A DNA stretch of 64,000 bases, taken from the NCBI GenBank assembly GCA_003116975.1, contig BGKB01000031.1:1-64000 (forward strand). The letters are read 5' to 3'. Numbering within the stretch: the stretch's first letter is position 1; the number at the start of each line of letters is the position of its first letter. Below the pieces are notes generated by a model. It did not search any database, was not told the DNA's origin, and worked only from the letters and a program-made list of their open reading frames with translations. This document shows positions 36,701 through 53,352 of the stretch, piece by piece. Origin of the DNA: Aurantiochytrium sp. KH105. Lineage: Eukaryota > Sar > Bigyra > Thraustochytrida > Thraustochytriidae. Both the position numbers and the translations under genes were made by a program.

Positions 36701-37728
36701 CGCGCCAGCAACGCGAGGAGTCGCGCCGTCGCAAGGCCGCGGAGAAGCGCGAGCAAGAGGAAAAGGCTGCCGTCAAACTCCAAGCCCTCGCGCGAGGTCG
36801 GGTCGCCAAGCGGGAGGTGGCGGCGCGGCGTGCCAGCGCAGCCAAGGAGAAAATGCGTCTGCGCGCTCTCGAGGAGGAGCGGCGGCAGCAAAGTGCGCTC
36901 GAAGACGCTGCGTTGCGCATTCAATGTGCTTTCCGAACGCGCCAGGCGCGGCGCAAGATGCAGGAACGGGTTCGGCAGCATCAGGCGCGATTGGCGCAGC
37001 TGCGAGAGGAAAGCGAGCGCGAGGCCGAGCTGCAGCGCCTACGGGAAGAGCAGGAGCGCGAACTGGCCGCGACTAAAATGCAGAACCTATATCGGGCCAA
37101 GGCTGCGCGGCTTCAAGTACAGGCGCGAAAGGCGCAGCGAGATCGTGAGACAGAAGAGGCGAGGGTCCGACTGCAAGAGGAGGAACGCCATCTTGCGGCG
37201 AGCAAGATCCAAGCAGTGTACCGTGGTTTTCGCGATCGCCGGTCTCTCGCGCAGGCCAAAGTTGCGAAAGAGACTGCTCCGGCTCCTACGGACCAATGGG
37301 TCGAATATTGGGATGAAAATTCGCAAGCGTACTATTACTACAATACGGAGACAGGCGAGGCAAGCTGGACAGATCCTCGTGTGCAAGGCGGCTACGAGAC
37401 CGTTGGTTCCATCACGGACTACGATACGGACAACTATCAGTATGATCACCAATTTTACGACTACAACCAAACCGCCGCAACGCCTGACTATGGAAATTAT
37501 GCAAATGCTCATCAAGAAGAACACCAACAGCAGTACGACCAGCAGCAGGACGCCTATGGGGCAGGGCAATATGGGGCTGAAAGTCAGGAGGAATGGCTGC
37601 AATACTACGATGACACGTACCAGGCTGCGTATTACTACAACCAATATACAGGCGAAACGGCCTGGGAAGCTCCACCCGGCTTTGTGTCCAAGTACGATGA
37701 TCCAACGCATGCACCGCGCTACACGTGA
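33724..37728 (+). CDS. EF-hand / multi-IQ / WW scaffold protein
   Basis: 1334 residues. A Gln-rich N-terminus and basic linker precede an EF-hand pair at about 187-247 with two complete loops (DEDGSGSLSSDE, DRDGDGSIDYEE). Then come Trp-containing helical repeats (MAAWKVWNTFVLKAR, FANWKRKKSIAALNTW). About 21 IQ motifs follow at about 425-1170, such as ALQVQRVFRGFRGRK and SLKIQAVFRGYRDRR, embedded in Arg/Glu/Gln-rich coiled coil. Two WW domains end the protein: WVEYWDENSQAYYYYN...W (about 1190-1222) and WLQYYDDTYQAAYYYN...W (about 1288-1322). It has no motor or CH domain, so it is neither myosin nor ASPM. Expected: a cytoskeletal calmodulin/light-chain scaffold binding Pro-rich partners through WW. 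The architecture is unfamiliar to me. Confidence 0.88.
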   Translation: MSNVFFPSANTLQQPQHKQQQQPRPLVSRGHKVKLLDVEEVRNALHQQHQGQQRMKAKTRQQRTDDRNRNQQLHDEGQQHESFPQERAKQSPNQLHTRARSPVRKTKQPASGLRAGKKRRMKRGTRERHARGSPSPGPAREMKGGETREDNDVGVLSSALDMDEEMVRALDEADRAAEDAASEYLRAFEQFDEDGSGSLSSDEVLQVLVSLGVEAVELESIMNEADRDGDGSIDYEEFVTLMKNRKRLQEMKRTLDAQIEQQEQDDRYNNRLGEGGGTRRKRTRKRRRRQVGPSSGVEGLREELSQAQAVMTKLEAKVNANVQWVQENCNVTSLRAQLYCKRWGMQKLQNIMRRIEYKDVMAAWKVWNTFVLKARNEAQVAQYMKLKGSRRLSNLFANWKRKKSIAALNTWMRAVEHDRAMERLAAALQVQRVVRGFLGRIATTIKVREFAALQVQRVFRGFRGRKQAADARSHLRDVRAAKYIQRCYRGYAGKKLAAAMLRARAETNAAAKIQALYRARRDRARFAQVLCAHQERLAATNIQRVFRGFVARQIVLVRQQAIAEHMSAVIIQAQVRGYQGRLHGFELMETRMQLIAEDEASLKIQAVFRGYRDRRRVLEIRQTRAAILLQKTWRGHRDFMSMRVAKLERRRQSTAATRIETACRGYLARKRVRALREEAQAARQIQRVRRGQIARRRYQSRKEAFALDMRRNRAREDAATRINALVRGFLARRRVSRIRAKRMAEEHEEEAAAIKLQALQRGRLARKAFDEEKRAAEILQAQMQKAREEAAATRIQSQFRAKLARDRVRKLHARKAQEALAQLHEQERAEEERRERQEAAIRMQGAWRAKQARDETQARRARLAEQRARVEQEQAALRIQGGVRRAQAKKAAEARRVERANQLREARSLEERAQLEREHVRHEAATRIQAFSRIVRARGETRKLRQKQAALRHAALAHERHEAAVKVQTMYRAWRDRKACRRIRWERENKELARQQREESRRRKAAEKREQEEKAAVKLQALARGRVAKREVAARRASAAKEKMRLRALEEERRQQSALEDAALRIQCAFRTRQARRKMQERVRQHQARLAQLREESEREAELQRLREEQERELAATKMQNLYRAKAARLQVQARKAQRDRETEEARVRLQEEERHLAASKIQAVYRGFRDRRSLAQAKVAKETAPAPTDQWVEYWDENSQAYYYYNTETGEASWTDPRVQGGYETVGSITDYDTDNYQYDHQFYDYNQTAATPDYGNYANAHQEEHQQQYDQQQDAYGAGQYGAESQEEWLQYYDDTYQAAYYYNQYTGETAWEAPPGFVSKYDDPTHAPRYT

Positions 37729-37775: not shown

Positions 37776-38261
37776 TCCGAAGAGGCTGCAGAGTCGCACA
37801 GAGCTGACGGTTCTTGGCGAACAGGCAGACAGCCATTTGTCCGTCAACGTTTGCCTCCTTTCATGGCGTCTCATCAAGATTGATGACGGCACGGTAATAA
37901 GAAGATCTCGCTCGCTAAAGAGCGAAGAAGCGCAGCGGCCTCGAAAAAGGACCAGCAGAATCGTAAGAAGATGAAGAATTCGTTTCAGATGTGTTGTGAA
38001 TGATGGCTCGGAACAAAGCAAAAGAAGAAGATGCGTAGGTAGGCGTCGACGCATCGCATCACATCCCATCACATCACATCACATCACATCACCCACCAAA
38101 GGCAAGCGGCCAAGCAAACAGCCAGACCGCGTCGCGGGGCGCGGCTCGACGTCCGGCGAGGCTGGGCCGGCACGTCCTTGAGCGCGCTCTTCCTTGCCGC
38201 GGCAGCCCTTGCTGCGAGCGGCCGAGTCGGTTGGTCGGTCGGCCGGCCGGCCGGCATCACC
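37729..38261. other. Intergenic region IQ-WW / CAMK
   Basis: 533 bases, with the decamer repeat at its start and a CATCA/CATCG pentamer run at 38051-38094, followed by the GC-rich leader of the kinase. An in-frame upstream ATG at 38178 exists, but 38262 has the better context (CACCATGA). Confidence 0.65.
38051..38094. repeat. (CATCA/CATCG)n pentanucleotide repeat
   Basis: Nine or so CATCR units (GCATCGCATCACATCCCATC then CACAT units), similar in sequence to runs at 13732-13760 and 14118-14160. Confidence 0.9.
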
Positions 38262-39809
38262 ATGACGGACTTCGACGCAGAGCTGGGAAGAGCCTTCGCG
38301 CTCGAGCACGACGGCGGCGGGGCAGGGGGCGGCGGCGGGGCGGGAGAAGAACTGCGCGGGGGCCTCCCGGAGCGGGTCCAGGACGACGATGACCGGAGCC
38401 GATTTCGTCGCGCTCGAGGAAGCAGTCGGTACAGCGACGAGGAGGAGAGCCCAACGTCGGAATCGTGCCCCTGCTGTTTGCAATGGCTGAGCCGGCTCGG
38501 ATGCGGCGGCACGAGACAGTTTGACGACGGCGATGGGTACGAGGGCGCGAAAAACACGTATCGGAGGCTTTACGACGACGGCGACGACGACGATGACAAA
38601 TTGTCCATTGTCAAGTTTGGGGACGCCTTTGAGCTGGGAGACGAAATTGCCAAGGGCAGCACCGCCAAGTGTTTTGCCTGCGTTGAAAAGGCCACAGGCA
38701 AGGAATTTGCTGTGAAAATCATCAACAAGCGCAAAGTCTTGGTCCTGTATAGTGACCTTTTGCCTCAGTTCAGGCGCGAAGTGGATATTTTGCGCCGTCT
38801 CGAACATCCGAACATCATCAAGCTTCAAACCGTCTTTGAATCGCGTGTGCATTTGCACGTGGTTACTGAGCTTGCGCGCGGCGGTGAACTTTTTGACTAC
38901 TTAGTGAGCCGCCCTAATAGCACCTTGACAGAAGCAAAGGTGTCGTTCTTAATGCGCCAGTGCATTAGCGCTGTTGCCTACCTGCACGAGCATAATGTTA
39001 TTCATCGTGATCTCAAACTAGAGAACATTCTCTTGCAGGACAAGGTCGAGCATTACCGTGATATACAACTCAAGATCATCGACTTTGGTCTGTCGAAGAC
39101 GCTCACGGGTAGAGCTGCAAGTAGAGGTCCCGGCGATGAAAGCCCAATGTCGTACACGTCGCCACTTAGCACACGAACATTCTTTGGCACAATGGGTTAT
39201 ATTGCGCCAGAAATGATGCATCGTAAAGCGTACACACGCGCCATTGATGTCTGGGCGCTCGGGGTGGTCACCTTCGTTTTGTTGTGCGGTGTCTTTCCTT
39301 TTGACGAGAAAAGAAATAAGCGTCGGACGGATTATCGCCTAAGGTACCCGTCATGGGTTAAGGATCTTAGTGGGTCTGCCAAAGACTTACTTGGTCGTTT
39401 GTTACATAGCAACCCAGCAAAACGATGTACGGCAGAACAGGCGCTTCGGCATCCCTGGGTAGCCGGCGAAACGGCATCGCCGGCATCCGTCATTCATAGC
39501 CCGCGTCATTTGCGCGGGCTCAAGGCGCCGCCAGATCTTTCTGCAGCACTTCAGGAAGCAAACACCGCACTTGCCGGACAACAAACTCCTACCGGTCGTC
39601 ACTACAATTCGAGCATGGGAACATTTGCTCAGAGCGATGGTGCGCAACGCCAAGACAACAGGGAACATGGCGTAGAAGCACATCATCGCGCAACCTTTCA
39701 TCCTGACGCGAACGATGACGATGACGAAGATGATGATGACGATGACGACGACGACGACGACGGGGCTTCATCTTCATCATCTTCGCTTGGTTCGCCAAGC
39801 CTCTTGTAG
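38262..39809 (+). CDS. CAMK-group serine/threonine kinase with acidic tail
   Basis: 515 residues. An acidic, Gly-rich N-terminus with a Cys cluster (SCPCCLQWLSRLGCGG, about 68-83, possible lipidation or metal site) precedes the kinase domain at about 123-400. Motifs: EIAKGSTAKCF (glycine loop with two glycines replaced), K152 in FAVKII, HRDLKLENILL (D250), DFGLSK (274-279), a long activation loop to GTMGYIAPE, DVWALGVVTFVLLCGVFPF and the CAMK-type end RCTAEQALRHPWV. The group assignment rests on HRDLKLEN, LLCGxxPF and HPWV. No classical autoinhibitory/calmodulin helix is obvious. The C-terminus is a poly-Asp/poly-Ser tract from a GAC/GAT microsatellite (about 39709-39765). Confidence 0.9.
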   Translation: MTDFDAELGRAFALEHDGGGAGGGGGAGEELRGGLPERVQDDDDRSRFRRARGSSRYSDEEESPTSESCPCCLQWLSRLGCGGTRQFDDGDGYEGAKNTYRRLYDDGDDDDDKLSIVKFGDAFELGDEIAKGSTAKCFACVEKATGKEFAVKIINKRKVLVLYSDLLPQFRREVDILRRLEHPNIIKLQTVFESRVHLHVVTELARGGELFDYLVSRPNSTLTEAKVSFLMRQCISAVAYLHEHNVIHRDLKLENILLQDKVEHYRDIQLKIIDFGLSKTLTGRAASRGPGDESPMSYTSPLSTRTFFGTMGYIAPEMMHRKAYTRAIDVWALGVVTFVLLCGVFPFDEKRNKRRTDYRLRYPSWVKDLSGSAKDLLGRLLHSNPAKRCTAEQALRHPWVAGETASPASVIHSPRHLRGLKAPPDLSAALQEANTALAGQQTPTGRHYNSSMGTFAQSDGAQRQDNREHGVEAHHRATFHPDANDDDDEDDDDDDDDDDDGASSSSSSLGSPSLL

Positions 39810-40182: not shown

Positions 40183-43100
40183 CTACATGATCGCGCACAT
40201 TCGGGACTGCTGTAACGTCACGACCGGCTCTTCATCCTCGTCCTCACTCAGGTGCGACGGAACAAAGCACGATGATGGCGGCCGGAAAGAGTCCTTGAGA
40301 TACTCCATTGCCTTCAATCGAAGAGTGATTGACGCCATCTGAATGAAAGAACCAAGAATGAGCTGCGTAGTCTGTCGATGCATGATGACGAGCCGATAGA
40401 AGCGAAATCGCGCGGCCCCCTTTTTCTGCAATTTGTAAAATGCCATGACAGTGTCCATATCGAGAGGCTGCAAGTGGCAATTGTGCGGAGCTTGATCCTG
40501 GTCCTTCTCAAAGGACTCGACGACGCTGCAGTCGAGAGGATTGATGAGAAACGAGCTCTCAGTGGAGATCACTTCCAAGCACCGAAACTGGAATCCAGAG
40601 TACGGATCTGGGGCGTGATGAATGAACAGAATTGCTCGTGCATTGGTGGCCAAGCGATAGCAATCGCAGGTGTCGAGACTACCCTGTTCCTGATTGCACT
40701 TTTCGGCAGATTTACAGGGTGGATGCAAAAGCGGCGCGAGCTGCGCGAAGCTTCGCAGGCAGGTTACAAATGCATTAAAACTGTTTCGGAGATTTCCCAT
40801 TCGCTTTTCCATCTTTCCGATGAGAAATTGCGCCTTGGCCAAAGTGTTCTCGGCTTTATCAAACTGTGTATCGAGCCAAGAATCTGCAAGTTTGTAGCTG
40901 CGGGCTGCTAAGCGTGTTCCGTACAGTGGGTCCTGGGAAGACACCAAGGTTGATGCCTGGTTAAAGTGTGAGCACGCGTCGAGATGTGAATGCGGCCCAG
41001 CATGCGCAAAATGCGAGCCAATGATAATTTGCATATTCTGCTTCGGAATGTCTGCCAAGGTGCCCAGCGTCAAATGCTCGGTGTAGGCGTTACCTAGCCT
41101 TCGATGTACCTCCATTCGGTAAGACAGGAGCAAATTCTCGTAGAGATATTGGATACGATTATCCACGTCGTTGATGCTGTACGAGTTCTTGTGCACATGA
41201 CGCAGGATCTGGAAGTCGGTCTGCAAAGCCTCCAAGGCATATTGCACGTCTTGCGCGGCGTTGACCGGCATCAATGAGTATAACACTTCCGCATCAATGC
41301 GGGGATCAACCACGCCCATGACGGCAATATACTTGAGTGTTGTTTGCACAGCCTCTGCACGATCGAGACCGACCGTGAGCCGTGAGATATCCGCCACGAA
41401 CCCTCCATGTTGACGTCTCCATCGAGAATCCGACTCGTCGTGATTAAGGATGTCACGCACACGCACGCATAGAGGAGCGCGGACAATCGAAAGATGTGCT
41501 ATCACCTCACCATCGCGGAGAGAATCCATTGTCTCGTCGGGATCCAATGGGAAGAATATTTGCAAATTGCGCTCAAAGCCTCGTGGAAAAATCTCAGATA
41601 CCACGAAACGCGTGTCCAAGCACGGCGGGAGACAGTAAAATGTAGACTGATCCACGATAATGAGCGGCTTCGCGTCTGTGATCGCCCAAAGCGATGTCGC
41701 TCGATCTGCGAGTCGAGCGGAAAGCCGTGGAACCCCGCCAACCACGGAGTAGGCGCATCTTGCGGCGCTTCCGACTACGCCGATCTTACAGAGCCCGGAT
41801 GCGAGGCCCAACGCTACCTTAAAGCCCTCCGCTCGAAGCATGTCGCGCACCTTGAGCGCTGCTTCCAATCCCTCATTTTCGGTCCCGTAGGCTCCGTTTC
41901 CAAAACTGATGGTCATATTGAGACCCTTGTGATCGAGCCAGGCTCGCATAAAGTCTCCTAGAAACTCGCCAACGACAGAATCGACGATGGATATTGCAAT
42001 CGACATTGAGAGTGTATCGATCTTGTCCTCAAGAGCGCAGCTTCCATCACTCACGATAATTGTCAACACCGTTGCGTGGCAGGATTCAAGCTGCGCAACA
42101 AAGCAACCTGCGAGAAGCTCGACAACGACCCTCCTGGGCACGAACCGACTCAGCGCGGCGATCCGTGCATTACCTTGGCGCCCCCGAGTCGTTGCATCCG
42201 AGAGTCTCCGGTCGCTCAGTGCTCGTCCGCGAATTGCTTGGGGGGCATCATACTCTGTCGAGTCATTAGTAGTCTCTCCCGCCAAAGTGGCATTCATAGC
42301 TATTGGCACTGGGGAGCGAAATGATTCCGATTTCCCAAGTCGCATGCTACGGCGCGTATTTGTCACTTCGAGCCCATTGAAACTCGGCACATCGGAGCGA
42401 TCTCGCTTGTGTGCACTGCCCGTCATGTAGGGCGCATCGGCCTGCGCTAGCTTCAGATAGTCTCTGGCCTCGACGAGCCTTTCATAAAGCAACTTTGTCG
42501 TTGGCTGGGTTGCGTCCATCCGAAGCCGCACAAAAGTCTTTGAGAGGACAACGCGATCCTTCACGTCCGTGATGGACTCATGGACGAGCGTTTCTGACCC
42601 TTGCGCCTGGACGCACAGATCCAGAGCTAGGGCAGGAGCCTCTCCAGACAGCAGAACTTCATGACGCATGCGGGAACCTGCAATGTGCAGCTGAGCTTTC
42701 CCAAAAGCGATGCCTAGCTTCGTCCTCATGTGGTCCTTGGCGAGCACGTCCCGGTCGATCTCGAAGGTATTAAGTTTGTGCATGAGGTCGAGAGCGAAGA
42801 GCAACCCCCGACTTTGGCACTTTGTGCGCGCTAAATGTGACTTGTTAATGTGCGAGAACAAGGGCTCTACGGGAAAGATCACCTGCACGCTGTCGTCAAG
42901 AATTTTGATCGCATCTCCCTGGAATGTGCGGATCTGACCAATAAGAAATTCCCAAAAGCGTGTGACTACCTCGGGACTGAGTCCTGACCTCGGAATCTTA
43001 GGAGCGGTCGACTCCTCGCCTTCGAGAATGGAGCGGTCCATTGCATGCCGTGCTCGGGTCACGTGACGTGCGAACTCGGTGAGGCCTTCAACGTAGATGT

Positions 43101-43530
43101 GGACGACGACAGTCTCGAAAGTGGAAGAGTACGGAGCTTTGCATTCGCGGACGCTCTTGGTCGAGAGTGTCCACTGAAGAAAATTCGAGGTGAGTTCAAT
43201 GACTTTTGCCCGTGATTCTCCGAGGTGCATCGGAGGAAGGGGCTCAGCATCTGGATCTTCAAGGGTTCCCACAGCATGGCGATACTGCGCGGCGAACTTT
43301 CTCCTTGCATCACTCTGCTGTGCCTTTCGAAGGAATCGTTGAATGCGAACACTAGCTCCAAGCTCAGACTTGGGGTCGAGGCCTTTGTCTGCTGCCTGGT
43401 CTGAAGGCACCGTCCTGAACTCAATGTTCTCCTCATGGAACTCGATTTTCGATCGCGTCGCTGTGATGTCGTTCACCGCTTCACCGACAAGTTCTTCATC
43501 GAGCTGAGAGAGATGACTGCTGCTGTCCAT
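40183..43530 (-). CDS. Soluble-adenylyl-cyclase-like protein A (catalytic residues lost), CaaX-terminated
   Basis: 1115 residues, the most divergent of three tandem ADCY10-type paralogues. It keeps the order: IQ-like motif (SVRIQRFLRKAQQ, about 60-73), C1 cyclase-like domain, C2 domain, remnant sAC C-terminal region (GFVADISRLTVGLDRAEAV...), C-terminal module (FIHHAPDPYSGFQFR) and terminal CAIM. C1 has HIYVEGLTEF where the others have FVDMKGFT, so the first metal Asp is gone; the second survives in ILDDSVQ. C2 has VVGGVPRLSARLA where Asn-Leu-x-x-Arg is expected, so the base/ribose-binding Asn is lost. Most likely a pseudo-cyclase, perhaps a regulatory partner. The gene is intact with no stop codons, so it is probably under selection. 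Confidence 0.87.
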   Translation of the reverse strand: MDSSSHLSQLDEELVGEAVNDITATRSKIEFHEENIEFRTVPSDQAADKGLDPKSELGASVRIQRFLRKAQQSDARRKFAAQYRHAVGTLEDPDAEPLPPMHLGESRAKVIELTSNFLQWTLSTKSVRECKAPYSSTFETVVVHIYVEGLTEFARHVTRARHAMDRSILEGEESTAPKIPRSGLSPEVVTRFWEFLIGQIRTFQGDAIKILDDSVQVIFPVEPLFSHINKSHLARTKCQSRGLLFALDLMHKLNTFEIDRDVLAKDHMRTKLGIAFGKAQLHIAGSRMRHEVLLSGEAPALALDLCVQAQGSETLVHESITDVKDRVVLSKTFVRLRMDATQPTTKLLYERLVEARDYLKLAQADAPYMTGSAHKRDRSDVPSFNGLEVTNTRRSMRLGKSESFRSPVPIAMNATLAGETTNDSTEYDAPQAIRGRALSDRRLSDATTRGRQGNARIAALSRFVPRRVVVELLAGCFVAQLESCHATVLTIIVSDGSCALEDKIDTLSMSIAISIVDSVVGEFLGDFMRAWLDHKGLNMTISFGNGAYGTENEGLEAALKVRDMLRAEGFKVALGLASGLCKIGVVGSAARCAYSVVGGVPRLSARLADRATSLWAITDAKPLIIVDQSTFYCLPPCLDTRFVVSEIFPRGFERNLQIFFPLDPDETMDSLRDGEVIAHLSIVRAPLCVRVRDILNHDESDSRWRRQHGGFVADISRLTVGLDRAEAVQTTLKYIAVMGVVDPRIDAEVLYSLMPVNAAQDVQYALEALQTDFQILRHVHKNSYSINDVDNRIQYLYENLLLSYRMEVHRRLGNAYTEHLTLGTLADIPKQNMQIIIGSHFAHAGPHSHLDACSHFNQASTLVSSQDPLYGTRLAARSYKLADSWLDTQFDKAENTLAKAQFLIGKMEKRMGNLRNSFNAFVTCLRSFAQLAPLLHPPCKSAEKCNQEQGSLDTCDCYRLATNARAILFIHHAPDPYSGFQFRCLEVISTESSFLINPLDCSVVESFEKDQDQAPHNCHLQPLDMDTVMAFYKLQKKGAARFRFYRLVIMHRQTTQLILGSFIQMASITLRLKAMEYLKDSFRPPSSCFVPSHLSEDEDEEPVVTLQQSRMCAIM

Positions 43531-44880
43531 TGTCTTTCCGGAGTTTCTGGCGCGGATCGCCCTCTTCCTCGACCTCTACGTGTCGAGGCTCACAATGGCC
43601 GTCGTTCTCCTCTTTTCTCTTTCCTTTCTTGCCTTGGTGTCTGCTGCGCAGCGTGCCTTGCGCAGATTGGCCTGGCCTTGCCCGGCCTCGCACGAGAGGC
43701 GTGACGAGGAACGCAACCGCGTGGTTCTCCTCTTTGCAAAGTCTGCCTGCCAAGCGCGATCGGCCAGCGCAGCGCGACCGTGGCGACTCCTAAGTAACGA
43801 AGGTAGGTTCTGGCTGTGTGCAGCCAGCTCAAGCAAAGCCAGAGCAAGAGTGTGTGCAAAGGAGTGGTATGATCGCGGACCTTGAAAGACCGCCGCGCGA
43901 GTGTTCATTCACCCTTGCACAAAGGAGGAATGATGGAAAGAAAACAACCGATGGCCAATGTGGGGCACACTCGCCTCTCCGTGCAAGTGGACTGCGTAAG
44001 AATGGATTCGTCAATGCCTTTTCTGTCACCGTGACAGTGGATTGGGGTTACCCGCGCCAACTTTTCATGAACTGCTTCGGCTCGAGCTGCACAAGAAGGG
44101 TATATCAGCTAGCAAAGCTAGCGACTGGGGCACGGGCCGCGCGCCGCGTCTCTCAGAGCCGGTGCCCAGGCTGACTGTGAATCCTATGTCAGAAAATGAA
44201 TCTAGGTTGAGCTACTGTCATGACCCGGGTCACCGTAACGTAGTACTAATACGTAGCATTGTGCTACAGAACAAAAGTCAACGGATCGTTCACATTGTAT
44301 GCGAATGCAGCGCTCCACAGTCCGGTGACAAACCTCTGGTCGGTTGATCGGTTGCGCTTCGCTTTCCCGCACGCTGTGTATACAACGCCGAGCAACATTT
44401 AGTAAGACCGGACAGCTCACTCAGCTCTGCTCAGATGACCTTGCCATCTTTTACTTTGATGTCAAAAGAAAAGTCTTTCGAAAAAAAACTTTTGGAAAAA
44501 AAAACTTTTATGACGCCGTACTGGCGGCACTGGTACGTCCGTTCTAAAACGGATCTTAGCCGTACCGCAGGTGGGCCTGTCAGACTCACCTCGCACTCCA
44601 TCAGATTCAAACAAACACCTCGAATCAGCCACTTTCCATCAATCTTTGTCTTAGTTTATAGCGTGGTGGATTACATATCATTCGAAACAAATCGAGGGCC
44701 CACACACAAAGCTACGAGCTAAACCTAGTCCACGCCCAGACCCGGGCCAAATTTTAGGCCAAGACCTAGGCTCTGGTGAAAGTCTTCATTCGTTGACGGT
44801 ATAAAAAAGTGTATCTGGAGCCAATCCTGCAAACTTTGCAGGTAGAATGAACGGAGATGACCGGCTGAGAAATGTGATCT
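43531..44880. other. Intergenic region between cyclases A and B
   Basis: 1350 bases, promoter of A and 3' flank of B, AT-richer toward B. It contains a GCTAGC-AAA-GCTAGC palindrome near 44108-44122 and A-runs at 44467-44510. A plus-strand open frame at 43580-43885 begins like a signal peptide but has no homology and lies in A's 5' flank. Confidence 0.6.
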
Positions 44881-47800
44881 TTACTGAATGTGACACACTT
44901 TTGAGCGGTCCATGAGCGTGCTTCCAGAGCGTGACAGCCCCCCTTGTTCACCTTTGCTTTGCTCACTTGTAAGAGTATCTTGTGTGTGTTGCGTGAATGA
45001 GGTGGAGCGAACTTGGCCTGCAGATTTGACTTCCATCATGGAAGAGACCTTGGCGAGCTGGGCTAGCATGTGAAGAACGAGCTTTGCGACAGCAGCGTCG
45101 TGAATGTAAATCTGATAAAACGACTGTACAGTAGAGTCGCGGTCGACCATTTGGTATCGCTTGAGTGTCTCTTCCTCTGACATTTCTTCAAGTACGCAGA
45201 CAGAGGAATTTGAGTGTCTTGGCTGCGCGGACGAGAGATTTGCGCATTCGAATGGTGTGAGGTGAAAGTTGCTGCCACGCGGAGACTCGACCTTCATTCC
45301 ACGAAGGTAGTACGTGCTCGAATGCGCATCCTCTGTGTGGTGTACAAAAAGATAGGCTCGCATGCGAGGTCGGAGTAAAAGACAGTTGCAATTGGGCGCA
45401 GACTCATGTAAAAGGCGACAAGTCGCATTTGACTTGCATCTGGGCTTCAAAAGAGGCTTGAGAGCCCCGTAACATCGAAGTCCAGCGACAAAAGCGCCAA
45501 AGCTTTGCTCATAATTGTTGGACTTGAGCTCGCATCCACCAACAAGGTACATGGACATTGCCTTGGCCTTTTCTGCCTTGGCCTGCTGCTTTCGTTGCCA
45601 GCCCTGCACGAGCTTGCGACTGCGGCGCGCGAGGAGCGCTGCGTACTGGAGGTCATGATGAGCGATCTTGGAAAGTCCCTTGTTGAGGTACTCTGCTGCC
45701 TTGAGGTGATGCTCCACACCGGCAAGAGCGTAATGCGAGCCAACGATCACGTGAAGGCTGTCTTTCGCAAAGTCCTTGAGATTGTCATTTCGCACCTGTT
45801 TTTCATAAATTGTGGCGAGATCTTGGTGTAATCGCGTCCGAAACGATTGCATCAAAGTCTCGTAAAGCGGCTTGACATGCTGCGTTGCGCTGCGCACCAT
45901 GTACACCTGGTTACCAGCATCCTGTAGAATCTGCAGGTCATTTTCGAGCACTTGTAGCGAGTATGACAGGTCGGAGCACACCGAAACGCTTTGAATGACA
46001 GAGTAGAGGATGGTGACGTCAATGCGTGGGTTCACCACACCCATGACGGCTACGTGCTTTAGCACCTCTTGCACAGACTCTGATCTCTCGAGTCCCACCG
46101 TGAGACGATGAATGTCGGCAACAAAACCGGAACGCTTTTGCCGCTCGCGAAAACTCACGGCGGATCGTTTGGTAACATGCGTCACCTTGACAATGCGAGT
46201 TTCTCTTTCAAAGCCGAGGTGCTTTGGAACATCCATATCCTTCAGATCTTCGAGCGACTCGCGTCGGTCGAGCGGGGAGAAGACCTGAATAGCTCGCTCA
46301 AAGCCCTTCACCTTGACGTTGGACGTTGCGAACTTGGTGGCACAGTGTGCGGGAAGTCCGAGGAAGGTAGTGTGATCAGTCAAGATGAAAGACTTTGTAT
46401 GAAAATAGTTGGCCGCCTTGGAAGCACGGGCCATGAGTCGTGCCGACAGATTCACTGTGCTTCCCACGACTGCATACTCATTGCGCGTTGCTGCGCCGGT
46501 CGGGCCAAAGTGGCACGCTCCTGATGCAATTCCTATTGCTGCCACAATGCCCTCTCTCGCGTAGGATGCCTTGATTTGCATGGCGGCGTCAAAGGCCGAG
46601 GCCTCCGCGTTTGCGGCTGAGATCCCAAACATGCCAATAATGACGAGACCCTTGTCATCGACAGCCACCTGTCGCAGATCGCCGAGGTGCTGGTAAATAG
46701 CAACTTGCGCTAGCGTCATCGCTACTTGCATAAAAATCGTTTGGTATTCCTCCGTTGCAGTGGGGTCGTAATTGGAAATCTCAATGAAGAGCACCGCACA
46801 GTATCCTTGGCCCAGCTGCGAAGTGTGGCATCCCGCGGCAATTTGGGATAGAGCGCAAATGGGGACAAAGCGTCCAAGCACGTCAAATGATAGCGCCGCG
46901 GAGGACCTGCCCTCCTGTGACTTGGTGTCGATGGCATCCTCAATTTCTTTTAGCCTCATAGAAATGCTCGACCCGGACGCATTGAAGCGCGACGCACCCG
47001 CAGATCCAAGCGAGCTTATCGACGACAAATGCCGGAGGGAAGCTCTTCGTTCCTTCGCGCGGGCCACGGCAAGATGTTGGGCGTGGTTCAGTGCTCGAAC
47101 ACCTTCAAGAAGCTCCACCGTCGACTCGCCTTCGTCGTCGTCGTCCTTGTAAGGATTTTTGTACAGACTCGCATCGAAGTAGTCGCCTGTTTGCGTGAGA
47201 TACTGGTACAAATCTGCCACCTTGGGGTATTTGGGTCCAACCTTGACTCGTACAAAGCTCGCGTCGCGGCGATTTCGGGGCAGCATTTCTTTAGCGATGA
47301 CAATGCTTTCGTGCACAATGGCTTCATCGTGGTTGGCTTTGCCACTCAACTCCGCCGCAAGCTCGGAAGTTTCGCCAGAAAGCACGAACTCGCAGCGTGA
47401 TGCAACTCCGCCGAGTACGCGGACGCTCATCATTCCATACGCAAGACCAATCTTGAGGCTCATGCGCGAGGTACCTAGGTCGAGAGAGGCAATTTCGAAA
47501 AATTCGAGCGCGCGGAGCAGCTCTAATGTAAACATGAGACCTCGATTTTGACACGATGTTGCCGCTTCCTCAGGATCCGCCACATTTGTGAAGAGTGGTT
47601 CGATGGGGAAAATGATTTGCACAGCGTCACCGAGGTACTTGAGCACAGACCCCTGGAACTTGTGGGCGTACATGATGACCAGCTCCCAATACTTTCCGAG
47701 AACAACGTTAGTGAGCTCGGAAGAAAGGTTAATATTCAAATCTTGGTCGAGAAAAACGGATGAGCCAGTTGCGTCGACAGTATTCTTTTTGGCAAGATAT

Positions 47801-48315
47801 TGTGCAAGATTGGTGAATCCCTTCATGTCAACGAAAGCGACGACGCCTTCGATGCGGTGACACGTCTCGGGCTTGAGACTCTCTGGACCCTTTGTTCGCA
47901 ATAGCCACTGGAGATACATGGGGGTGAGCGCGCACAGCTTTTCCTCGGTCTCATAGAGTTGCTGCTGGGCGTTCCTGTCATTGGGCGTGCTCATCTTGCG
48001 CAAATCTGCCTTGGTTCGCATTAAGCGTCGCTTCCACAGCCATCGCGCGTATTTGAGTTTTCGTTCTCGTAGCCATCTTTGAATTCTTCTTGCGCAGGCG
48101 CTCCTTTCCGCATCTGCAAAGGCCTCGTCGTGTTTGCCTGAAATGAGGTCTCGCGGGTTGAACTTGAAGCTGACGCCGTGATGATCGCGATTATCGCTGC
48201 CATCCTGCCTCGAATTTGTTTTGGCCTCGCCGAGCCACCTCGACAGGCCTCCAGAGTCGTCGTTGTCGTCGCCGCTGACAATGGAGGCGCGGCGGATCTC
48301 CGCAGTGGCGTCCAT
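44881..48315 (-). CDS. Soluble-adenylyl-cyclase-like protein B, CaaX-terminated
   Basis: 1144 residues. IQ motif RRIQRWLRERKLKYARW at about 76-92; conserved pre-domain LTPMYLQWLLRTKGPE. C1 at about 155-345 has both metal Asps (D163 in FVDMKGFT, D230 in YLGDAVQ). C2 at about 480-670 has VDDKGLV (K555, the sAC-type base-contacting Lys), EYAVVGSTVNLSARLM (N622, R626) and IASGACHFGPTG. The residues needed for one C1/C2 active site are thus present. The sAC Thr that reads the adenine is Ala here (A615). After C2 the sAC winged-helix-like segment (FVADIHRLTVGL...VAVMGVVNPRIDVTILYSVI) follows directly, without the P-loop NTPase. It ends VCHIQ, a CaaX box. Predicted to make cAMP (or cGMP) at membranes. 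Confidence 0.9.
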   Translation of the reverse strand: MDATAEIRRASIVSGDDNDDSGGLSRWLGEAKTNSRQDGSDNRDHHGVSFKFNPRDLISGKHDEAFADAERSACARRIQRWLRERKLKYARWLWKRRLMRTKADLRKMSTPNDRNAQQQLYETEEKLCALTPMYLQWLLRTKGPESLKPETCHRIEGVVAFVDMKGFTNLAQYLAKKNTVDATGSSVFLDQDLNINLSSELTNVVLGKYWELVIMYAHKFQGSVLKYLGDAVQIIFPIEPLFTNVADPEEAATSCQNRGLMFTLELLRALEFFEIASLDLGTSRMSLKIGLAYGMMSVRVLGGVASRCEFVLSGETSELAAELSGKANHDEAIVHESIVIAKEMLPRNRRDASFVRVKVGPKYPKVADLYQYLTQTGDYFDASLYKNPYKDDDDEGESTVELLEGVRALNHAQHLAVARAKERRASLRHLSSISSLGSAGASRFNASGSSISMRLKEIEDAIDTKSQEGRSSAALSFDVLGRFVPICALSQIAAGCHTSQLGQGYCAVLFIEISNYDPTATEEYQTIFMQVAMTLAQVAIYQHLGDLRQVAVDDKGLVIIGMFGISAANAEASAFDAAMQIKASYAREGIVAAIGIASGACHFGPTGAATRNEYAVVGSTVNLSARLMARASKAANYFHTKSFILTDHTTFLGLPAHCATKFATSNVKVKGFERAIQVFSPLDRRESLEDLKDMDVPKHLGFERETRIVKVTHVTKRSAVSFRERQKRSGFVADIHRLTVGLERSESVQEVLKHVAVMGVVNPRIDVTILYSVIQSVSVCSDLSYSLQVLENDLQILQDAGNQVYMVRSATQHVKPLYETLMQSFRTRLHQDLATIYEKQVRNDNLKDFAKDSLHVIVGSHYALAGVEHHLKAAEYLNKGLSKIAHHDLQYAALLARRSRKLVQGWQRKQQAKAEKAKAMSMYLVGGCELKSNNYEQSFGAFVAGLRCYGALKPLLKPRCKSNATCRLLHESAPNCNCLLLRPRMRAYLFVHHTEDAHSSTYYLRGMKVESPRGSNFHLTPFECANLSSAQPRHSNSSVCVLEEMSEEETLKRYQMVDRDSTVQSFYQIYIHDAAVAKLVLHMLAQLAKVSSMMEVKSAGQVRSTSFTQHTQDTLTSEQSKGEQGGLSRSGSTLMDRSKVCHIQ

Positions 48316-48507
48316 TCGGCTCGACGATGTGTAGCCGACGAGCTAACTCCTCGCCAGCAACGCCCACGCACCGCGGCGCGGCGCGCTTCGCGCTCGGCCT
48401 CCGGAGGAAGGGCGCCAGGGCGGGGCTTGTCACGGCCAGCGCTTCGCCGACCTCCTTGCCCGTGAACTCGACTCGCGTCGAGTTGCAGTCGCAACAAGCT
48501 CCGTGTT

Positions 48508-48509
48508 GG

Positions 48510-48571
<62 letters not shown>
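48508..48571. repeat. (GGCA)n microsatellite upstream of cyclase B
   Basis: About sixteen uninterrupted GGCA units (TGCC on the coding strand of cyclase B), roughly 190 bases upstream of its start codon. Confidence 0.95.
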
Positions 48572-48572
<1 letters not shown>

Positions 48573-49181
48573 CTCGCTGTTTTTGCTTTGTTTTGTAGCT
48601 CTTTTCGTATGAGGGCGCGCCGCGCGCTCTCGCAGCGGGCGTGCGCGCGCCACACAGGCCCGCGGCACGCTCGTGCGCCCGCGTGCCCACGAAAGCGAGG
48701 CGAAGCGAGGCGAGGCGCGGCGGCAAGCAAGGCACTCTGCTTGGTTTGTTCGCCTTGATTCGCGTTGCCTCGCGTCGCCTTTTTCCTTCGCCCCGTTCTG
48801 GACGCACGCCGAGTGCACTTGAGAGCGCTGTCTTCTTTTTCTCTCTCCCCTCTCCCTTCGCGTCTGCGCGGCGACGGCGCGGCGCCGCGCAGGCAGGCGA
48901 ACGGGCGGGCGGGCGGGCGCAGGCCACTCGCCGAGCTCGCCGACCGACCGAAGCGGTGATGCACGCCGCCGCTGTATTGTCTGCTCCGGCCAGTCAGCCG
49001 GCCAGCCAGCCAGGCCAGGCACACGCTGCGCAGCGCCGCCGCGCGCTTGGCCACTCCACTTGTCTACAGTGCCACGAGGTTCCGAACGGATACTTTTGCT
49101 GTACACCTCCGGTGTGTGCCTCCCGTACACACAGCGCGACTCAGGTAGAGAACCTGAGTGGACGTGCGGGGAGGCCGCGAC

Positions 49182-49224
49182 GCAGCAGCAGCAGCAGCAG
49201 CAGCAGCAGCGGCGGCGGCGGCGG
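49182..49224. repeat. (CAG)n-(CGG)n trinucleotide repeat
   Basis: About nine CAG units followed by five CGG units in the B-C intergenic region. Confidence 0.95.
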
Positions 49225-49830
49225 TAGCGGCAGCGAGAGGAAAAACGAGCAGGCGCCCGCCGCTCCGCGCGCTCTTGCGCCAGAGCTCACAGTGGAAGGC
49301 GCCCTTGGTGATTGTCTCGCCCAGCTTGGATTTTGTTCGCCGGACATGTTCGTTTTGGTACACAGCGCGGCACAGCACAAAAGGGGGTGTGTATGCTACT
49401 TTTACCTTAATAAAATACCGTAATGTGTACTAGCAATGAAACAGTGGAGCTCTGCACAGCGGCGGTGCAACAGACCCTCATGGCGCGAGCGGATCGACGC
49501 AACGAAGCTCGCGACGCAACGAAGCTCGCGACGCAACCTGATGCAACGCAACCTGATGCAACGCAACGCAGCGCAAAGCAGCGCAACGCAACGCAAACTT
49601 GCGTCGGATCCATTGTCCGCGCTCGCTCTTACCCTCACTGTCAATCCTTCATTCTTTATAATCCTTCGCGAAAGCGCCCCACAGTGGTCGGCTGCGCCGG
49701 GACCGGGCGACGCCATTTTCAACGGACACAATAATTTAGAAAACAAAGGGGCGGAGAGCCTAGGAGGGTAAAAAAGAGACTGATATCAGTCACAGAGAAA
49801 GAAGCCATACGATCAGCTACAAATCGAATG

Positions 49831-49941
49831 AATTATTGAATAGTACAAAGTCTGGGCGCTCACAAGCGAGACGATCAGCGTTAAGTAAAAAAAAACTGAC
49901 AGCTGCAAGAAATTATTGAATTATTGAATAGTACAAAGTCT
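49831..49941. repeat. 23-bp direct repeat duplicating the cyclase C terminal codons
   Basis: AATTATTGAATAGTACAAAG plus TCT occurs at 49831-49853 and 49919-49941, 88 bp apart. The second copy is the end of the cyclase C coding sequence (…LCTIQ stop, minus strand); the first lies downstream of it. Confidence 0.9.
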
Positions 49942-52900
49942 TGATCTGGGCTCTTCCTCCATCATTTGTTCCTCATTGTCTTCATTGACCTCCAAGATTG
50001 ACTCGGCCAGACTTGTGCTGCGTTCTACAGAGGTCTTCTGGCCCGAATGAAGTCTGGAGGTTGCCAGATCGAGCTGAGCTAGGCTCTGCAAAAAGTGTTT
50101 GGAAGTAAGAGGGTTGTAGAGGGCGACGCGGAAATACTGTAAAACACTTGCATCTTCGCGACTCAGTTGGTATTCCTCTTCCGCCTTGTCTTTTGTGAGC
50201 TCCGTGAGCGTGCAATTGACCGTGTTGGCCGATTCGCTAAAGTTGTGTTTCATGATCACGCCCTCGCAGGCCTCCATCTTGAGACCGGAACCGTCTGTCG
50301 ATTTTACATGAAGACAGCGGAAAGAAAATGAAGACGAACTTGCATCTTCGGCATGATGAACGAAAAGGAAGGCGTTCAAGCCAGCTCGTAAGCGGTCGCA
50401 CGTGCAATTGTTGTGAGCTTGGCTAATACTGCCGGCCTGACGTCGTGCTGACTTGAAGAGGTCGACGTCATGTGCGATACACAATGGCGAAAGAAGGGGG
50501 TACAAGTTGCTGTACGCTCGCAAACAGCCCACGAAGGCGCGAATACTTGCAGCTTGATCTTGCTGCAAAGCTTTCATGGTACCAAGAAAGAACATCGACT
50601 TTGCTGCGACCTTTTCTGCCCGAGATCGTTGCATGTTTTGCCAAGAACGCACCAGCCTCTGCGAACGCTGCACGGTTGCCTCGGCAGACTTGGGGTCGGT
50701 AGCATATTGCCGGCGAAGGCCTTCATTAAGAAATTCTGCAGCTTGGAGGTGGAAGTCGACACCTGCTAAGGCATAATGAGATCCGATCATCTCATGAAGG
50801 CTGTTGCGCGGAATCTGTCGCAGATGACCGTGTAAGAGCTGATCTTGGTAAATTTCGGCAAGCTCGCGATGGAGTTGATGCCTGAACGATCGCATGAGCG
50901 TCTGATACAGCGGACGAATGTGTTTCTCGACGTTGCGAACGAGATACACTTGATCGCCTGAGTCCTCAATGATCTCCAATTCTTTCTCGAGAGCTTCAAG
51001 AGCTTCGTTTAAGTCGGTTCGTACAGCGTGGCTGGGGATGATTGCATAGAGAATTCCTGCGTCGATCCTGCGGTTAACAACCCCCATGACTGTAATATAC
51101 TTGAGAACCTCGCGAACGGACTCCGGTTGCTTCATGCCTAGCGTGATGCGGAAGATGTCAGCTACAAAAAAGTTGCTGACCGAGCTCGAGGAGCGACGCA
51201 TCCTCTTGTGCGTGGCAGCAGATACTCGCACGATCTCTGGATCTCGACAAAGTGCGAGGCATTGGATGGTAAAGTCATCTTGAAGGATCTTCAAGGTACA
51301 TCCCTCGTCAATGGGGAAATAGATTTCGACCGCTTCATCCACACCTTTGACTCGAAGTGCCGCATGTATAAAGTCCGTTGTGCACGACAGCGGTAGGCCT
51401 TTGAAGGTGTTTGCGTCAATGAGAAGATTGCAAAAACGAGTGCTCTTTGCACTCAGTGCACCTACGGCCTTGCCCATGAGACGAGCAGATAAATTGACTG
51501 TACTTCCAACGACGGCATACTCGGCTCTCGTATCAGCCCCAGTTGGGCCATAGTGGCATGATCCTGTGGTGAGGCCAAGGCCCGCCTTAATTCCTGCCGC
51601 CGCGAACTCCTCCTTTACTTGCAAAGCGGCGCTAAATCCTGGCAGCTCGGGTGCCTCTGCAGCAAGTCCGAAAACAGCAATGAGGACTAAACCTTTGTCA
51701 TCGACTGCGACCTGTCGTAGGTCGCCGCGATTCGAATAAATTGCACTTTGCACTAAGCAAGTGGCCTGATGAATAAGAGCTGTCTGTGCTTCTTCTGGGG
51801 CTTCCGGGTCGTAGTTCTTAATTGAAATGAAGAGAACGCTGCAGAAACGATGGCCAAGCTGCGCGTTATGGCAGCCCGCAACAATTTGAGAGAGTGCACA
51901 CATGGGAACAAATTGACTAAGCAGTGGAATCATGTGCTCGCTTTGCACTAACGCTTCGCCGGTCTGGGATGTGTTAGATATTGCACTTGACAGCTGTGAC
52001 GAAGAGCATCTCGAGCGCGTTGCGGCGTTGAGCTTTACGTTGTTGAAGTTGAAAATTGAACTGCTCGTGGGTTGCACAGAGAACTCGGGAAGGGATATCT
52101 GGCTCGGGCGAGGTGCCTGCGAGCGCTGCGAAGCGCGTTTGGCCACAAGCTTTTGGAATCTTGCGAATGAGTCTATGCCTCGATCCTGGTATTCATTATA
52201 CAGTGCGTTCCCAGATAGATACGGATTCATGTTCACGCTGACATTGTAGTAATCTTCAGTCTGCGTCAGCGTGTGATAGAGGGCCTCGACCTCGGGGAAC
52301 TTGTCGCTCATGCGGAGTCGTACAAATTGGGCCTTTGCCGAGGCTGCTGTTTCCAATGAGTCAATCGACCCGAAACCCAGCTCTGCAACAGTCTCGTCGT
52401 CCTTGGCGCGCGAGCTGAGGTCTGCGGCCTTCGCTGCGGCTGGGCCCGACAGAACAAATTCGCACCTTGAAAGCACGCCTCCGACGACGCGAAAGCTCAT
52501 GTCCCCAAATGCGAGGCCGATTTTGAGCTTCATCTTGTTTGTACCTACTTCAAGAGAACTGATTTCAAAGAACTCGAGAGCGCGCATGAGCTCGAGGGCA
52601 AAGAGGAGAGCTCGATCTTGGCACAGCTTTTCCGCCTCTACTTCGTTCACGACGTGCGAAAAGAGCGGGCGCACGGGGAAAACGATTTGAACAGCATCGC
52701 CAAGAAATTTGATCACGTCTCCGCTGAACTTGTTCGCGTACATGATCACGAGGCCCCAATACTCTGCCAAAACTGCAGAGGTGAACTCCGACGAAGCGTC
52801 AATTTTGCTGGCTTTCCATGACTCGTCAATAAAGAGAATCGAGTCATTTCCTCGCGTTCGAGGCATGTTTTGTGCAAGTTTGGTGAAGCCTTTCATGTCG

Positions 52901-53352
52901 ACGAATGCCACTGCTCCTCGCGCATTAGTAAGACGTGGTGCAGAAGCTTCTTCAGGTCCTCTTGTCTCGATGAGCCATTGCAGGTACTCAGGTGTTAGAG
53001 TGCGTAAGCGAAACTCTGTCTCGACCGCTTGCTGCGCGACAACTCCTTCTCGGTGCGAATCCGTGACCGTGAGGCTTCTTCGGACTTCCATCATTTTACG
53101 TCTATACTTGCGCTCTTCCTCTCGTTTTCGGGATGTTCTAAATTCCTGTTGAATATGGCTTGCAGCATCAATCTCTGAAAGCTGTTTTCGCAGTGGAGGT
53201 TTGGACGGTCGACTACCATGGTCCTGCTCTGCTTTCTTCTGCTCCTTGGCCTCATCATGCTCATCTTCCCACTTGTTTTCCTCCTTTTCCTCCTCGACGT
53301 CAAGTATGTGGTGAACGTCCATGACGTTCCAGCCGCGTGCGCCACGCGTCAA
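49921..53352 (-). CDS. Soluble-adenylyl-cyclase-like protein C, CaaX-terminated
   Basis: 1143 residues, closely similar to cyclase B. Acidic/Lys-rich N-terminus, IQ-like motif SHIQQEFRTSRKREEERKYR (about 66-85), LTPEYLQWLIETRGPE. C1 has D152 (FVDMKGFT) and D219 (FLGDAVQ). C2 has VDDKGLVLIAVFG, TGSCHYGPTGADTRAEYAVV and VNLSARLMGKA, so metal, Lys, Asn and Arg positions are all kept; the adenine-reading Thr is Ala, as in B. The sAC-like C-terminal remnant (FVADIFRITLGMKQPESVRE...ITVMGVVNRRIDAGILYAII) lacks a P-loop. A CxC pair (NNCTCDRL) and the module FVHHAEDASSSSFSFR precede the terminal CTIQ. A Met at 53322 is an alternative start. Lead gene of the head-to-tail trio. Confidence 0.9.
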   Translation of the reverse strand: MTRGARGWNVMDVHHILDVEEEKEENKWEDEHDEAKEQKKAEQDHGSRPSKPPLRKQLSEIDAASHIQQEFRTSRKREEERKYRRKMMEVRRSLTVTDSHREGVVAQQAVETEFRLRTLTPEYLQWLIETRGPEEASAPRLTNARGAVAFVDMKGFTKLAQNMPRTRGNDSILFIDESWKASKIDASSEFTSAVLAEYWGLVIMYANKFSGDVIKFLGDAVQIVFPVRPLFSHVVNEVEAEKLCQDRALLFALELMRALEFFEISSLEVGTNKMKLKIGLAFGDMSFRVVGGVLSRCEFVLSGPAAAKAADLSSRAKDDETVAELGFGSIDSLETAASAKAQFVRLRMSDKFPEVEALYHTLTQTEDYYNVSVNMNPYLSGNALYNEYQDRGIDSFARFQKLVAKRASQRSQAPRPSQISLPEFSVQPTSSSIFNFNNVKLNAATRSRCSSSQLSSAISNTSQTGEALVQSEHMIPLLSQFVPMCALSQIVAGCHNAQLGHRFCSVLFISIKNYDPEAPEEAQTALIHQATCLVQSAIYSNRGDLRQVAVDDKGLVLIAVFGLAAEAPELPGFSAALQVKEEFAAAGIKAGLGLTTGSCHYGPTGADTRAEYAVVGSTVNLSARLMGKAVGALSAKSTRFCNLLIDANTFKGLPLSCTTDFIHAALRVKGVDEAVEIYFPIDEGCTLKILQDDFTIQCLALCRDPEIVRVSAATHKRMRRSSSSVSNFFVADIFRITLGMKQPESVREVLKYITVMGVVNRRIDAGILYAIIPSHAVRTDLNEALEALEKELEIIEDSGDQVYLVRNVEKHIRPLYQTLMRSFRHQLHRELAEIYQDQLLHGHLRQIPRNSLHEMIGSHYALAGVDFHLQAAEFLNEGLRRQYATDPKSAEATVQRSQRLVRSWQNMQRSRAEKVAAKSMFFLGTMKALQQDQAASIRAFVGCLRAYSNLYPLLSPLCIAHDVDLFKSARRQAGSISQAHNNCTCDRLRAGLNAFLFVHHAEDASSSSFSFRCLHVKSTDGSGLKMEACEGVIMKHNFSESANTVNCTLTELTKDKAEEEYQLSREDASVLQYFRVALYNPLTSKHFLQSLAQLDLATSRLHSGQKTSVERSTSLAESILEVNEDNEEQMMEEEPRSRLCTIQ

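Follow-up and report, generated by a model that had tools for sequence, protein, structure and literature searches.

The locus described here raises the question of what kind of cyclase is encoded by three neighbouring genes of the thraustochytrid Aurantiochytrium sp. KH105, and whether all three can still catalyse. The genes lie in positions 1 to 64,000 of contig BGKB01000031.1, a stretch that we analysed at its full length of 64,000 nucleotides and call the window. The original prediction, made from the letters alone, saw in them three head-to-tail minus-strand genes of about 1115-1144 residues coding for homologues of the animal-type soluble adenylyl cyclase (sAC; ADCY10). Genes 1, 2 and 3 are of the sAC type, do stand head to tail on the minus strand with the positions and lengths foreseen, each in a single frame, and are intact on both haplotypes. 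We consider it probable, with room left for doubt, that their products are prenyl-anchored, ATPase-less sAC-type cyclases accompanied by pseudo-cyclase partners or scaffolds. The trio is part of a five-gene subfamily of the ADCY10/cyanobacterial C1-C2-STAND type, without the P-loop ATPase and with a winged-helix/TPR module and a CaaX box. A farnesyl tail would anchor the proteins at the membrane. In the products of genes 2 and 3, C1 and C2 would fold together and turn a purine nucleotide, probably ATP, into its cyclic form, in the absence of both the ATPase part and the ADCY10 bicarbonate arginine; gene 1 and two dispersed relatives, P4 and P5, would perform no two-metal catalysis and may function at the membrane as pseudo-cyclases, either as regulatory partners or as scaffolds, by way of their C1-C2 fold and winged-helix/TPR module.

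The tandem trio and its dispersed relatives

In BLASTP comparisons genes 2 and 3 share 41% identity (E 0.0), genes 1 and 2 share 32% (E 7.5e-167) and genes 1 and 3 share 32% (E 4.5e-154). Since these E values are 4.5e-154 or lower across at least 1029 aligned positions, chance similarity is excluded. Over the full alignment the identity is 41% for genes 2 and 3, and 31 and 30% for gene 1 against the other two. The kinship assumed for the trio extends beyond the catalytic domains, the genes being homologous end to end. They are separated by gaps of 1350 and 1605 bases. The open frame of gene 3 (49921-53352, 1143 residues) starts at a mechanically assigned TTG at 53352; its first ATG, at 53322, which the other haplotype shares, gives 1133 residues.

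The genome (G000; 76 Mb in 367 contigs, diploid-like) carries counterparts of the trio in identical order on another contig (C14:161260-174091), and the alleles show 17 nonsynonymous differences in the 1115 codons of gene 1, 15 in 1144 of gene 2 and 25 in 1133 of gene 3; therefore, the trio is not an assembly artefact. Genome searches with gene 2 and with P4, in which the best candidates only were scored, found two further full-length relatives, P4 (C3/C19) and P5 (C54/C117). In this sense, at least five members per haplotype were found, three in tandem and two dispersed, a count to be read as a lower bound. The local expansion with partial divergence that had been proposed is supported. A match to gene 2 residues 483-633 (33%) inside a 1134-residue frame (C58:306986-307444 / C17:301582-302040) may represent another short cyclase, and a stop-bearing fragment (C19:240860-241081), 45% identical to the P4 tail (E 9.8e-4) and about 13 kb from P4, is possibly a remnant of another copy. 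Across the five family genes the haplotypes differ at about 10-13% of synonymous sites, which is high for alleles; a hybrid origin or old asexuality is possible.

An sAC-type build with a missing ATPase core

Judged by its sequence, the family has lost the P-loop STAND ATPase core behind C2. Pfam reported no AAA family in genes 1-3 at E<=1. With a single search pattern, Walker A was found in none of the 10 family alleles, against 9 of 12 long cyclase frames of the same genome and 19 of 21 bacterial sAC-like proteins. About 65 residues of gene 2 separate the end of C2 (residue 683) from the stretch aligned with the bacterial post-ATPase core (residue 749); in the cyanobacterial cyclase L058 about 330 residues lie between C2 and the corresponding core (763).

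The region that follows the ATPase in these relatives is kept in the trio, in line with the sAC-like C-terminal remnant that had been predicted. A profile hidden Markov model (HMM) of the bacterial post-ATPase region matched genes 3, 2 and 1 with whole-sequence E values of 7.1e-8, 2e-6 and 4.9e-6, respectively, and the best of 210 decoys (shuffled or reversed C-termini) reached 0.36. An hhalign comparison of the family with the post-ATPase profile gave an E value of 2.7e-6 (probability 88.6%), against 0.74 for the reversed alignment and 0.46 for the N-terminal half used as controls. We scanned 282 frames of at least 200 residues from own-genome loci and the window, some of them repeated by overlapping loci; the 18 rows that passed the HMMER threshold were nine sAC-type cyclases and nine rows of the trio or its alleles. 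Less focused comparisons were weak: the best domain E value was 0.03 against the genome's own long cyclases, and cyanobacterial full-length proteins gave 0.025 by hhalign and a single hmmsearch match, L058, at 0.0049. The remnant became clear once the profile was built from the bacterial post-ATPase region. The last ~190 residues of the family proteins have no convincing Pfam family and no recognised relative; a PH domain was considered there and rejected, since Pfam showed none up to E 10 and hhalign gave E 0.82.

Prokaryotic relatives, mostly cyanobacterial, were fetched as outside references, and two of them (L053 and L058) were scanned with Pfam. These C1-C2-AAA_16-TPR cyclases share with the family the order C1-C2-...-winged helix-TPR, and they differ in having a P-loop ATPase between C2 and the winged-helix/TPR part and a K/T base pair. 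The long sAC-type proteins of the same genome (L009, L010, L013, L014, L016, L017, L018 and L020) have C1-C2 in common with the family, as well as the post-ATPase region in all but L020; unlike the family, they carry Walker A (8/8), their open frames run to 1416-2969 residues and some bear PH, GNAT or phosphodiesterase (PDE) domains. They show two PF00211 stretches plus the ATPase, with AAA_16 above the Pfam cut-off in L009, L010, L014, L016, L017 and L018 and below it in L013 and L020. Genes 2 and 3 resemble ADCY10 in the C1-C2 tandem, both metal aspartates in C1 and the Asn/Arg of C2. The family differs from ADCY10 in that the gene itself is without the ATPase core while the part behind is kept, in the CaaX box and in the presence of degraded paralogues; genes 2 and 3 differ further at the K334/T405 pair (Q/A) and at the bicarbonate Arg176 (Ala), the ADCY10 C-terminus lying outside this comparison.

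Truncated mammalian sAC, which has no P-loop part either, is described as exceeding the full-length form in activity (PMC12802110, PMC3918592). Compared with the truncated protein, the purified full-length one has an activity about three-fold lower, and among the nucleotides tested no full-length-specific effect turned up (PMC12802110). For the reading proposed here, the truncated form serves as an earlier example of raised activity in an sAC stripped of its ATPase. The role of the STAND ATPase and of the long C-terminus of sAC is unsettled, and a natural family without the ATPase core, with winged-helix/TPR and CaaX, and split by its catalytic residues, is direct material to test each piece. 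Among the top-ranked results of word matches in the openly licensed PMC literature we found no ATPase-less, CaaX-ended sAC-type build, which is weak evidence. The same literature gave no word match for a thraustochytrid soluble adenylyl cyclase, a farnesylated or CaaX cyclase or a pseudoenzyme cyclase, and the sole match for labyrinthulomycete adenylate cyclase appears to concern histidine kinases.

Membership in the sAC class is supported by the remnant and by the PDB search run with genes 2 and 3, of which ADCY10 is the best match (E 6.3e-8 and 1e-9, respectively). These matches come mainly via C2, the C1 matches being weak alone. The best PDB match of L014 is also ADCY10 (E 2.5e-31). Genes 2 and 3 contain two distinct cyclase domains per chain, with 27.4 and 34.3 bits for the C1 model in the first domain and 72.0 and 77.4 bits for the C2 model in the second. 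The NCBIfam scan of the three trio proteins returned zero matches and the Pfam matches of the full proteins were weak. Of the C2 segments that had been aligned with mammalian sAC, VDDKGLV and EYAVVGSTVNLSARLM are present in genes 2 and 3 and both are lost in gene 1; GxxSGxCHxGPTG stands as written in gene 2, has Thr for Ser in gene 3 and is lost in gene 1. A profile of the family's first half matched the genome's own sAC-type loci L018, L014 and L013 with E values of 1.5e-32 to 1.4e-31 and the other ones within 1.7e-27 to 4.1e-15 (L039, L010, L009, L016, L020, L041 and L017, full-length or partial: 1.7e-27 to 1.4e-21). For the cyclases L019, L005, L007 and L001 the values were 2.8e-10, 6e-10, 2.7e-8 and 0.07; we label these other-type, meaning a strong PF00211 and a weak sAC-type match, with adenylyl and guanylyl not typed. 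L015 has a PF00211 match and a family-profile E value of just 1.1.

Where the family comes from was addressed with separate trees of C1 and C2. They comprise 30 rows (the five members of the family, 11 sAC-types and four other-type domains of the same genome, nine bacterial proteins and ADCY10 as the sole animal row) and are rooted at the midpoint; they exclude second alleles, L012, L015 and the other bacterial loci, L012 being the other haplotype of the L017 gene as judged by near-equal matches. The five-member family is monophyletic in both trees (100/100). In the C2 tree it groups with L009, L018, L020, L014 and L041 of the same genome (90/97) and ADCY10 falls elsewhere; therefore, the term sAC-type is right and animal-type is unsupported. 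The C1 tree does not settle the position, and an ATPase-bearing counterpart of the build exists in cyanobacteria. Radiation inside the organism's own lineage would be a better account than the animal-type ancestry of the original prediction. The four other-type domains form a separate clade, and neither C1 nor C2 of the family places with them. We rejected a transmembrane adenylyl or receptor guanylyl cyclase identity, as the other-type domains cluster apart and simple hydropathy found no clear transmembrane helix in the 10 alleles; the highest 19-residue hydropathy among them is 1.64, located inside C2 in genes 1-3.

All 10 family alleles end in a CaaX box (CAIM, CHIQ, CTIQ, CLIQ/CLVQ and CVVQ), so the lipidation tail that had been claimed stands as a predicted anchor. 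Of 98 other mechanical frame tails of the same DNA one has such an end, L014 (CAIL), itself of the sAC type. Met or Gln at the last CaaX place points to farnesylation, and the genome has matches to protein prenyltransferase alpha (PPTA) repeats and to the ICMT domain. Most likely, the family proteins are farnesylated and sited at the membrane. L014 (L014:1814-6700), which bears AAA_16, resembles the family in its CaaX end and its Q/A pair; the box may be inherited or independently gained.

Catalytic residues, constraint and alternative readings

Residues were compared in a table whose letters were checked against the printed ADCY10 chain, in which we take D47 and D99 to be the metal aspartates, N412 and R416 the Asn/Arg of C2, K334 and T405 the base pair, and K95, V167 and R176 the bicarbonate site. 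Among the five family members the full set of metal Asp and C2 Asn/Arg is limited to genes 2 and 3 (D/D and N/R), which should therefore be able to catalyse. The D47/D99 equivalents are Y/D in gene 1, H/E in P4 and H/D in P5, and those of N412/R416 are R/R, Q/R and H/F, respectively; the motifs at the first Asp and at the Asn agree between both alleles of each gene. Gene 1 is likely a pseudo-cyclase. The K95/V167/R176 equivalents are K/L/A in genes 2 and 3, and with the arginine replaced by Ala an ADCY10-like bicarbonate control is therefore not expected. In the residue table this arginine appears solely in ADCY10, L020 and P5, and it is lacking in 9/9 bacterial rows.

The K334/T405 equivalents are Q/A in genes 2 and 3, L014 and L041, R/S in gene 1, Q/S in L009, L018 and L020, and K/T in 9/9 bacterial rows. 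With Q/A, ATP and GTP cannot therefore be told apart from the sequence. Genes 2 and 3 could encode guanylyl cyclases, or ones of mixed specificity, that descend from sAC-type enzymes, a proposal that we regard as unlikely and that draws on this Q/A pair, common to L014 and L041, and on Dictyostelium sGC, an sAC homologue that makes cGMP. The two genes do not group with the genome's other-type domains, themselves untyped as adenylyl or guanylyl; moreover, Q/A differs from the Glu/Cys pair of guanylyl cyclases, and a Gln stands at the base-pair place of the mycobacterial adenylyl cyclase Rv0386.

The ratio of nonsynonymous to synonymous changes (dN/dS) between the haplotypes was also obtained for segments, each value resting on few changes. 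In gene 1 (0.02), gene 3 (0.01) and P5 (0.04) no segment has a lower ratio than the winged-helix/TPR part, and P4 and P5 are most similar to each other there (55% identity, against 47% in C1 and 42% in C2). Such figures would suit a family made up entirely of membrane scaffolds, with the cyclase fold as a mere binding platform. This seems to us rather improbable, because genes 2 and 3 have lost neither the metal Asp residues nor the Asn/Arg of C2, their C2 ratio (0.02 in both) is about as low as that of the remnant (0.05 and 0.01), and the remnant is not the tightest segment in gene 2 (0.05, against 0.02 in C2) or in P4 (0.09, against 0.05 in C1).

The opposite extreme, an ordinary sAC expansion with genes 1-3, P4 and P5 all active as adenylyl cyclases, could appeal to gene 1, which keeps the equivalents of the second metal Asp, K95 and R416 and whose C1 and C2 are strongly constrained between alleles (0.06 and 0.03; P5 is looser, 0.18 and 0.21). 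We hold it to be improbable. In place of the first metal Asp, gene 1 has Tyr and P4 and P5 have His, the C2 Asn is Arg, Gln and His in the same order, P5 has lost the Arg too, and the degraded motifs are identical in both alleles of each gene.

Over whole genes the allelic dN/dS is 0.068 for gene 1, 0.052 for gene 2, 0.095 for gene 3, 0.109 for P4 and 0.175 for P5, with 73 to 94.5 synonymous changes between haplotypes per gene, and a neutral ratio is rejected for every one of them (p<=1.5e-23). Gene 1, P4 and P5 are under purifying selection, and the degraded members are therefore not drifting pseudogenes: decay, to which the lost catalytic residues and the stop-bearing fragment near P4 might point, is scarcely credible given these ratios, about 1100 codons open on both haplotypes and a CaaX box kept in all.

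The preferred reading, ATPase-less anchored cyclases with pseudo-cyclase partners or scaffolds, is further supported by a split inside the family. The separation of gene 1, P4 and P5 from genes 2 and 3 has local support of 0.992 in C1, 0.999 in C2 and 0.977 in the post-C2 part (FastTree), and both midpoint-rooted trees unite the three degraded members in one clade (100/99 and 99/96). The same split from three parts, together with the clade, therefore speaks for one loss of catalysis, and a single loss in this branch is likely. We put forward more tentatively, as an idea with the odds somewhat against it, that this long-lived, dead and lipid-anchored branch, evolved once, provides dedicated regulators of the active ATPase-less sisters, a two-part membrane cyclase system derived from a soluble enzyme. 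If dead members do regulate live ones, sAC-type cyclases gain a pseudoenzyme layer.

Several observations weigh against the preferred reading. The remnant of P4 alone is not significant (whole-sequence E 0.072), though ahead of all 210 decoys, that of P5 was not detected by the post-ATPase HMM (E 4.3; 12 decoys score better), and two of the genome's own sAC-types, L020 and L041 (partial), have no remnant row at E<=5. On the first domain of gene 1 the C1 model scores hardly better than the C2 model (12.5 vs 11.8 bits), and PF00211 is above the Pfam cut-off in gene 3 alone (27.1 bits; gene 1 has 12.5 and gene 2 is not listed). The C1 tree leaves the family's position unresolved and the tool flagged long branches; the family's root lacks a firm position too, so that a single loss of catalysis is likely but unproved. 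CaaX letters do not prove prenylation, dN/dS from two haplotypes shows constraint and not which function, and with Q/A in place of the adenine-type K/T pair in genes 2 and 3 the substrate is undecided by sequence.

Feature positions, IQ-like motif and genomic context

Positions in the window of the three sAC-type genes and of their recognised parts
Feature	Positions	Strand	Remarks
Gene 1 (P1)	40183..43530	-	1115 residues; C1-C2-winged helix/TPR-tail-CaaX, sAC-type; catalytic residues degraded (Tyr for the first metal Asp, Arg for the C2 Asn)
Gene 1 C1 (approximate)	42541..43122	-	Y and D at the places of D47 and D99; weak match (12.5 bits with the C1 model, 11.8 with the C2 model over one and the same stretch)
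Gene 1 C2	41626..42084	-	46.6 bits; N412 equivalent R, R416 kept
Gene 1 winged-helix/TPR remnant (match envelope)	40816..41385	-	HMM best-domain E 8.8e-6
Gene 1 CaaX box CAIM	40186..40197	-	Sequence letters
Gene 2 (P2)	44881..48315	-	1144 residues; build as gene 1; metal Asp pair and C2 Asn/Arg retained
Gene 2 incomplete IQ-like motif IQRWLRERKLK	48052..48084	-	Motif match; Pfam IQ not reported
Gene 2 C1	47317..47853	-	D47, K95 and D99 equivalents kept
Gene 2 C2	46303..46797	-	N412 and R416 kept; K334/T405 Q/A
Gene 2 winged-helix/TPR remnant	45544..46125	-	HMM best-domain E 4.4e-6
Gene 2 CaaX box CHIQ	44884..44895	-	Sequence letters
Gene 3 (P3)	49921..53322	-	1133 residues from first ATG; build as gene 1; metal Asp pair and C2 Asn/Arg retained
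Gene 3 incomplete IQ-like motif IQQEFRTSRKR	53122..53154	-	Motif match
Gene 3 C1	52387..52920	-	PF00211, E 3.8e-6
Gene 3 C2	51388..51849	-	N412 and R416 kept; K334/T405 Q/A
Gene 3 winged-helix/TPR remnant	50593..51123	-	HMM best-domain E 1.4e-7
Gene 3 CaaX box CTIQ	49924..49935	-	Sequence letters

The shared N-terminal IQ motif of the original prediction did not hold. A complete motif occurs in none of the 10 alleles and Pfam IQ was not reported in the trio proteins at E<=1. An incomplete form is present in 6/10 alleles (P2, P3 and P4) and the minimal [ILV]QxxxR in 10/10, near the N-terminus; gene 1 and P5 have the bare minimal form in place of the incomplete one, and the motif stands at one aligned place in all five aligned members. 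Shuffled proteins contain the minimal motif 0.74 times and the incomplete one 0.157 times per protein. Calmodulin binding by the family is therefore just a possibility.

Other cyclases of the genome show further combinations of domains. Two frames of 2372 and 2646 residues (L011:1223-8338 on G000:C139, and G000:C38:440306-447721 / C160) join an sAC-type cyclase to a C-terminal class I phosphodiesterase. This domain order is the reverse of CAPE of basal plants, which is described as having the PDE N-terminal and the cyclase C-terminal (PMC5159850); CAPE is alike in placing a class III cyclase within a modular eukaryotic protein, and the comparison is relevant just to the cyclase-PDE fusions. 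L016 (L016:3736-8940) encodes a 1735-residue sAC-type cyclase in which AAA_16 and PH are joined by a GNAT acetyltransferase domain at the C-terminus.

The 64,000-nucleotide window contains no tRNAs. Convergent with gene 1 lies a protein kinase gene (38178-39809) that has a long stretch of poly-Asp close to its end. Pfam-detected IQ motifs occur at 3441-6905, in a CG-1/ankyrin (CAMTA-like) protein, and at 33724-37728, in an IQ-array/EF-hand/WW protein. At least 154 matches to the cNMP-binding domain were counted in the diploid-like 76 Mb assembly, so that possible cyclic nucleotide targets abound.

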